Shown here piece after piece: positions 13,779-15,241 of a stretch of 64,000 bases of DNA. The notes below the pieces were generated by a model that was given only the letters and a program-made list of their open reading frames with translations, did not search any database and had not been told where the DNA came from. The first letter of the stretch is position 1. The number at the start of each line of letters is the position of its first letter. Made by a program: the position numbers and the translations under genes. The DNA is taken from assembly GCF_000328525.1 (NCBI RefSeq), contig NC_019964.1, positions 1,736,001 through 1,800,000 of the forward strand. Direction: 5' to 3'. The stretch is from Halovivax ruber XH-70. GTDB lineage: Archaea; Halobacteriota; Halobacteria; Halobacteriales; Natrialbaceae.

Positions 13779-14423
13779 ATGTTCGTCCTCGTCAACACCA
13801 AGACGTATCCGTGTGACCCAGTCGCCGTCGCCGAGGCGGCGAGGGCCGTCGAACCGTCGACCGACGCCAGACTCGCCGTCGCACCGGAGCCGACCGCACT
13901 GGCCGCAGTCGCCGAGACGGGAATCGAGACCTGGGCCCAGCACGTCGACCCGATCGAGCCGGGAAGCAACACCGGCTCGATCCTCGCCGAGTCGGTCGCC
14001 GACGCCGGAGCCGCAGGAACGCTGCTCAATCACTCGGAGCGTCGCCAACGGCTCGACCAACTGGACGAGAGCCTCACGGCGAGCGGGCGAGCCGGCCTCG
14101 AGACGATCGTCTGTGCGAACACGCCCGCCCAGGCCGGGGCCGCAGCCGCGCTCGGCCCCGATGCAGTCGCGATCGAGCCCCCGGCACTGATCGGCGGCGA
14201 CACGCCGGTCAGTCAGGCGGACCCGAACATCGTCGAGGACGCTGTCGACGCCGTCGGTGCGGTCGACTCCGCCGTGTCGGTCCTCTGTGGCGCCGGCATC
14301 TCGACCGGCGACGACGTCCTTGCCGCCCGTGAATTGGGCGCCGACGGCGTCTTACTCGCGAGCGGCGTCGCGAAAGCCGACGACCCTGCCGGCGCGCTCG
14401 AGTCACTCGTCGACCCGCTTTAG
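13779..14423 (+). CDS. tpiA: Triose-phosphate isomerase
   Basis: Interconverts dihydroxyacetone phosphate and glyceraldehyde-3-phosphate. It has 214 residues, the short archaeal form. Catalytic positions are visible: Lys in VNTKTYP near the N-terminus, His in NHSERR, Glu in [10 protein letters not shown], and the phosphate-binding loop [13 protein letters not shown] near the C-terminus. It is transcribed alone, 78 bases after the MBF1-like gene and about 200 bases before the TIR protein. Confidence 0.95.
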
Positions 14424-14588
14424 GGCGACGTCAGCCCGACCGGATTACTAATCGATCGACGGGGTAGACACGGTTGTCGATAGTCAGAGACAGCAAAAGA
14501 CGACGAATCGGCCCGATCAAATCTTTTATTTCTAAATCTGTGGCGTGTCCATACCACATTTCCGTACCTGGCAACGGGATGTAGATAC

Positions 14589-14598
14589 ATTAATAACG
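14589..14598 (+). promoter_or_regulatory. Probable TATA element of TIR-domain gene
   Basis: CATTAATAAC sits about 33 bases before the ATG at 14627, inside a distinctly AT-rich 100-base stretch after tpiA (also TTTTATTTCTAAATC at about 14525). Confidence 0.4.
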
Positions 14599-14626
14599 AT
14601 GTACCGTCGTGGTAGACTAACCGATA

Positions 14627-15241
14627 ATGTCCGGAGAACAGGTGTTCGTCTCGCACGATCCAGCCGACCTGTCTGTCGTTCAGGAGCTGTTCTCGACGGT
14701 GAAGAACTTCCCGTTCGGGGTGCATCTGGCGCTCGAAGCCGTCGAGTCCGGCCGGAGCCGTGAACGACTGGAAGGCCGGCTGGCGAACAGCGACGTCGTC
14801 GTCGCGGTCCTGACGGAATCGTCCGCGGACAGCAAGTGGATCAACCAGGAAGTCGGCTACGCCATCGCGAAAGGGATCCCGGTGGTGGCGCTGTACACCG
14901 ACCCGTCGCTAGGCGGTGGGTTCCTCGACGGCGTCGAGGGCGTCACACTCGATCGGGATAACTTGACCGAGACCGTCTTCAATCTTCTCAGCCGACTCCG
15001 GGCCGAGCTCGCACCCCTCGGCGCGCTCTCGGTACCGAACTGGTACATCAGGTTCCCCTGCACGCTCGCAGACTGTGGCCACCCGGTAACGCTCGAACTC
15101 GAGGAGGGGCAGACGAAACTCTGGAAACTCCACAAACACGGCCAGTTGCTCGAAACGAGCTGTGACGTCTGTAAGACGAGTTATTACTTCGACCCGGCGA
15201 CCATCGGCTTCGTCAGGCGAGAAGAAGCGACGATCAACTGA
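14627..15241 (+). CDS. TIR-domain protein with C-terminal zinc-ribbon-like domain
   Basis: Soluble protein of 204 residues. Residues 5-125 look like a TIR domain: VFVSHDPADLSVVQEL forms the first strand and helix, SDVVVAVLTESSADSKW the middle, and WINQEV carries Trp71 and Glu75 at the WxxxE position that supplies the catalytic glutamate of NAD-cleaving TIRs. Residues 140-190 have CTLADCGH and CDVCKTSYYF, so Cys145, Cys150, Cys179 and Cys182 could bind zinc. There is no membrane segment. TIRs often act in phage defence or signalling, but no partner (ThsA, SIR2, STING, cyclase) is adjacent. Domain calls are fairly sure; the role is unknown. Confidence 0.8.
   Translation: MSGEQVFVSHDPADLSVVQELFSTVKNFPFGVHLALEAVESGRSRERLEGRLANSDVVVAVLTESSADSKWINQEVGYAIAKGIPVVALYTDPSLGGGFLDGVEGVTLDRDNLTETVFNLLSRLRAELAPLGALSVPNWYIRFPCTLADCGHPVTLELEEGQTKLWKLHKHGQLLETSCDVCKTSYYFDPATIGFVRREEATIN

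Follow-up and report, generated by a model that had tools for sequence, protein, structure and literature searches.

The TIR-zinc-ribbon gene and its surroundings

The gene described here lies in a 64,000-nt stretch of the Halovivax ruber XH-70 genome (NC_019964.1, positions 1,736,001 to 1,800,000), referred to below as the window; all coordinates are window positions. It encodes a 204-residue protein with a TIR domain followed by a four-cysteine domain. The relevant features are:

13779..14423, + strand: tpiA, triosephosphate isomerase (Pfam TIM, E 1e-34), the constant upstream neighbour
14424..14626, + strand: AT-rich intergenic region (GC 48% over 203 nt), containing a TATA-like stretch at roughly 14526-14537
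14627..15241, + strand: TIR-zinc-ribbon gene, an uninterrupted frame from ATG (14627) to TGA (15241), 204 aa, stop codon included in the span
14627..15022, + strand: TIR domain, residues 1-132, with box 1 (V-F-V-S-H...D14) and W71-x3-E75
14837..14851, + strand: W71-I-N-Q-E75, the putative catalytic Glu motif; W71 and E75 are invariant in the haloarchaeal set
15023..15238, + strand: C-terminal four-Cys (zinc-ribbon-like) domain, residues 133-204, with C145/C150/C179/C182
15286..15972, - strand: convergent gene for a J-domain protein with several CxxC motifs (Pfam DnaJ, E 1e-8)

Codon-position GC of the frame is 63/42/80%, which is typical of a genuine haloarchaeal gene, and this is the one TIR_2 gene in the H. 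ruber genome. A literature search found no paper on the family in the library searched.

The initial annotation called the upstream 100 bases strikingly AT-rich. The composition is as claimed: GC is 43% in the last 100 nt before the gene and 64% in the window as a whole, where just 0.4% of 100-nt segments reach so low a value. The stretch is nevertheless unremarkable, being an ordinary intergenic gap after tpiA; it holds the TATA-like TTTATTTCTAAAT and probably bears the promoter. Elsewhere in the window, GC falls to 56-60% between 28001 and 33000, compared with 64% overall, possibly marking a variable or acquired region.

The N-terminal domain is a predicted TIR fold

That the N-terminal domain has a TIR fold, as first proposed, can be held with confidence from profile matches and from the structure prediction that had been suggested as a check. 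Residues 6-92 match Pfam TIR_2 (PF13676) at 39.9 bits (cut-off 28), ThsB_TIR (PF08937) matches at 31.4 bits (cut-off 21.2), and the methanogen and thaumarchaeal relatives described below score 41-51 bits against TIR_2. The AlphaFold (AF2) model of the whole protein has pLDDT 83.8 and pTM 0.78, with values in the TIR domain mostly between 71 and 93, except at residues 41-50. In structure searches with VIA-align this domain matches the SPARTA, SARM1, AbTir and ThsB TIRs as well as nucleoside deoxyribosyltransferases, with Z 10.9-12.9 (up to 12.9 for the SPARTA TIR, 11.6 for that of SARM1 and about 11 for ThsB). The presence of NADase TIRs among the best matches counts for an N-glycosidase activity. 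Since nucleoside deoxyribosyltransferases match the model equally well, however, the fold does not point to one substrate.

The residues on which the initial annotation was built, Trp71-x3-Glu75 and Cys145/150/179/182, are at exactly the positions it gave and are unchanged in 55/55 haloarchaeal sequences. A conserved Glu in the alphaC helix, as expected of a catalytic TIR, is present in all 55 of these and in 44 other archaeal sequences. It was never lost in any full-length sequence examined, even at 20-25% identity. The Trp of WxxxE is mostly not conserved outside haloarchaea and Thaumarchaeota, and is therefore not essential.

The C-terminal four-Cys domain

The C-terminal four-Cys domain is likewise borne out. 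The four cysteines are invariant across an alignment of 35 diverse sequences. Spacing in the first knuckle differs (C-x4-C in haloarchaea, C-x2-C elsewhere) while the pattern itself does not. Modelled alone, the domain reaches pLDDT 89.4 in AF2, with strands flanking both knuckles; it thus carries, on beta strands, the CxxC...CxxC pair of knuckles that characterizes zinc ribbons, and we infer that it is zinc-ribbon-like, with putative zinc binding. The haloarchaeal domain aligns with its methanogen and thaumarchaeal counterparts at hhalign probabilities of 77% and 85%, and the domains of the various lineages align mutually at 77-97%. Against Pfam it gives sub-threshold matches only, and none of its own. 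Searched alone against the PDB it finds no confident match (best Foldseek E 0.75, best VIA Z 3.5), a result that says little because zinc ribbons are small and the model has no zinc.

Distribution in haloarchaea, methanogens and other Archaea

Of 101 same-family genomes, 82 carry the gene, each in single copy, and these cover 27 of the 29 genera. A class-wide genome draw, tallied by hand from the match list, placed it in 52/61 same-family genomes but in no more than 4 of about 181 others. Halovivax asiaticus provides the nearest named record; named carriers are Natrialbaceae together with Halostella, Salinarchaeum, Halorubellus and Haloarchaeobius. It is missing from whole genera (e.g. g8), and so must be dispensable.

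The initial annotation had tentatively placed the protein in a pathway of halophiles, but it is not halophile-specific. Methanogens have proteins of about 190 aa to which a profile built from haloarchaeal sequences alone aligns through the TIR and the C-terminal domain, and full-length relatives also occur in Thaumarchaeota and Thermoplasmata MAGs. With a mixed profile, relatives were found in 33/33 genomes of one methanogen family (f26; in one case only as fragments) and, by hand tally, in 22/24 genomes of a genus in another methanogen family (g127; two of them frameshifted or split), so that the gene is fixed in these lineages. The presence of mcrA confirms that the carrier families are methanogens. 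Both N-x-E-[IVL]-G and CxxC...CxxC are kept in every one of the 44 distinct full-length sequences examined from outside the haloarchaea (methanogens, Thaumarchaeota and Thermoplasmata). The TIR-zinc-ribbon architecture is uncharacterized, old and core to its lineages.

Nearly all genomes of methanogen family f13 have a second ORF of about 143-158 aa (e.g. G346:C1:812513-812764), which matches only profile residues 45-130, and weakly; it perhaps belongs to a nucleoside deoxyribosyltransferase-like family.

Genomic context

A survey of the neighbours of homologues, suggested with defence islands in mind, found instead that the gene keeps one place in a housekeeping neighbourhood. Of 51 named haloarchaeal loci, 48 have tpiA upstream and co-directional, no more than 2 kb away, and the order in most haloarchaeal loci is hisC - adenylate kinase - CDP-alcohol transferase - multiprotein-bridging factor - tpiA - TIR. 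The convergent J-domain gene follows in 35/51. Thirteen same-family genomes that have no TIR gene retain tpiA and the upstream block, and usually have no J-domain gene. Across the family, 66 genomes have both genes, 16 the TIR gene only, two the J-domain gene only and 17 neither (Fisher p 1.7e-8, a value that ignores phylogeny and is confounded by adjacency). Several genomes of genus g28 retain both genes although these lie about 150 kb from each other or on separate contigs. Between tpiA and the TIR gene, most haloarchaeal loci (e.g. L094, L096, L101) encode a hypothetical protein of about 130-160 aa that is conserved, has the motif ...ALENRLMSHGIYV...REWTPGRLEVTS... and is absent from the Halovivax window.

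Is there an operon partner? Clustering the neighbours of 14 methanogen loci revealed none consistently common to different genera, and a scan of loci for adjacent tRNAs turned up none that bears on the TIR gene. Three soil Thaumarchaeota MAGs (L140:6345-8573, L141:6133-8438, L142:6232-8573) have the TIR gene 17-24 nt behind two tandem genes with four CBS domains each, and near genes for a universal stress protein and a CBS-M50 protease. CBS domains bind adenine nucleotides, and this linkage is a lead toward nucleotide signalling, though not evidence for haloarchaea. As general partners the CBS genes were rejected, as they are not near the TIR gene in other lineages. The gene has no constant operon partner.

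Purifying selection

In five pairwise comparisons the dN/dS of the TIR gene was 0.015-0.19, versus 0.11-0.27 for tpiA, and in all five it was the lowest among 7-11 neighbouring genes. The same-genus orthologue has 81% identity and dN/dS 0.13. Purifying selection is stronger here than on the neighbouring housekeeping genes, and the C-terminal domain is as conserved as the TIR domain. Ratios this low fit a housekeeping constraint and not an arms race.

Defence or housekeeping?

Most TIR domains that have this Glu belong to defence proteins. The initial annotation suggested that the protein may be an effector or sensor of a defence or stress pathway, and remarked that no ThsA, SIR2, STING or cyclase gene is adjacent. 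The remark holds, the neighbours being tpiA and the J-domain gene. A defence effector is not supported: single copy across the family, the tpiA-adjacent position, the low dN/dS and the silence of the phage records all speak against it. The gene is syntenic, near-uniform and single-copy in its family, and so largely fits the picture of a core gene that the same annotation had set against its own proposal. Two further findings that it would have counted against itself, a fold other than TIR and loss of Glu75 in most homologues, did not turn up.

For Thoeris, no ThsA gene occurs among the window neighbours, whose order haloarchaeal loci keep, and a SIR2_2 profile search of the genome gave no match while its control was positive; a STALD search was silent, but its controls were silent too. 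The Thoeris III ThcB4 model (NCBIfam) scored 37.3 bits against a curated cut-off of 220, too low for a Thoeris assignment, an NCBIfam retron TIR match was far below its cut-off, and PADLOC returned weak matches to ThsB models. Nor does the protein resemble a CBASS or Pycsar TIR effector: its second domain is of the four-Cys type rather than SAVED or STING, and no cyclase gene is among the neighbours. The phage records searched gave no match to the TIR-zinc-ribbon protein, and three matches in viral contigs were all TIR-only. We also rejected a mobile cassette: the match to a Natrinema thermotolerans 'plasmid' (987 kb) is the hisC-adk-tpiA-TIR-J block on a megareplicon. Synteny, distribution and selection led us to reject a defence-island gene.

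Proposed function

We put the chances at about even that the protein is a soluble, housekeeping, stand-alone TIR N-glycosidase, acting on NAD+, an NAD-derived molecule or NAD-capped RNA, with the zinc ribbon as a targeting or assembly module. Glu75 would serve to cleave nicotinamide off NAD+ or another molecule that contains NAD, possibly NAD-capped RNA. The activity would be low or regulated, in keeping with a gene that is always present. Zinc would be bound by the four-Cys domain, which would either target a nucleic acid or partner protein or assemble the active oligomer.

There are archaeal precedents for such chemistry. Two TIR proteins, TcpA and TcpO, have NADase activity. TcpA depends on its Glu both for this activity and for stripping nicotinamide from NAD-RNA (PMC10937652); the toxicity of TcpO likewise depends on its Glu (PMC10022894). 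NAD-RNA is present in Haloferax volcanii (PMC10663502). The activity of TcpA on NAD-RNA and the occurrence of such RNA in a haloarchaeon led us to consider a more specific form of the proposal, a core archaeal enzyme of NAD signalling or NAD-cap processing in which the zinc ribbon would present NAD-capped RNA, or another NAD-bearing partner, to Glu75. It would make this an ancient TIR kept for ordinary physiology, with no immune role, in haloarchaea and methanogens; we regard this form as unlikely.

TIR domains are classic scaffolds, and a non-enzymatic protein, in which the TIR domain oligomerizes or serves as an adaptor while a nucleic acid or a partner protein is bound by the zinc ribbon, could accommodate both the lack of conservation of W71 in methanogens and a C-terminal domain as conserved as the TIR domain. 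A pure scaffold, however, needs no Glu that stays invariant in all full-length sequences at 20-25% identity, and this makes the scaffold doubtful. Because many TIR domains conserve the Glu and its presence does not always go with reported activity (PMC7075850), the scaffold keeps some probability.

Antiviral defence from a fixed locus is also rather improbable. Here the zinc ribbon would sense infection, and the TIR domain would deplete NAD+ or make a cyclic ADP-ribose signal, thereby halting the cell. The weak PADLOC and far sub-cut-off NCBIfam matches point this way, and being core does not bar a gene from innate defence, but the family-wide single copy at a housekeeping locus, the very low dN/dS, the lack of a match in phage records and the lack of a ThsA-type SIR2 in the genome argue against it. 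Least probable, and very much so, is a nucleotide N-glycosidase or deoxyribosyltransferase-like enzyme acting on a nucleoside or nucleotide (housecleaning, DNPH1-like) instead of NAD: a Pfam Nuc_deoxyrib_tr match just under cut-off (E 6e-6), a PHROG match, structural Z of 11-12 to NDT and DNPH1 and an E-x-G-x-A-x-A-x-G-x-P-V stretch matching 7m5h are outweighed by the higher, above-cut-off TIR_2 score, a TIR-type box 1 (V-[FY]-[VI]-S-H-x3-D), and methanogen and thaumarchaeal relatives that match TIR_2 much better than NDT.

To our knowledge, work on prokaryotic TIR domains has dealt almost entirely with effectors of defence or virulence, and it is unusual for a TIR protein to be core, single-copy and under strong constraint. 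Such a syntenic protein, spread over haloarchaea and methanogens and with a Glu that is never lost, would make a role of TIR NADases in ordinary physiology testable in genetically tractable organisms, Natrinema being one for the haloarchaeal form. If the NAD-cap or NAD-signalling proposal were true, haloarchaea and methanogens would have a TIR pathway without an immune role. More generally, a partnerless TIR gene does not by itself signal a new defence system.

Comparison with known systems

The protein resembles the ThsB-type TIRs of Thoeris (TIR_2 PF13676/ThsB_TIR PF08937) in TIR fold, in box 1 and in having a Glu at the N-x-E/WxxxE position. Unlike them it has an added C-terminal four-Cys domain and no ThsA partner, and it is encoded by a core syntenic gene, not a defence cassette. 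With nucleoside 2-deoxyribosyltransferases and DNPH1 it shares the overall fold and a catalytic-type Glu on the equivalent helix, whereas the sequence match is weaker, below the Pfam cut-off, and those enzymes have no zinc ribbon. NudC-type NAD-RNA decapping enzymes have a Nudix fold and pyrophosphate chemistry, and combine their catalytic domain with a zinc site of four cysteines. The TIR-zinc-ribbon protein would share with them the NAD cap as target and the pairing with four cysteines, purely by analogy since the two are non-homologous. TcpA (Theionarchaea, 327 aa; PMC10937652) and TcpO (Methanobrevibacter olleyae, 341 aa; PMC10022894) are alike in being archaeal, Glu-dependent TIR proteins. 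Both are longer than the 204-aa Halovivax protein; TcpA is set apart by its description and not by sequence, while in TcpO the TIR domain is itself C-terminal (residues 204-341), leaving no place for a C-terminal zinc ribbon.
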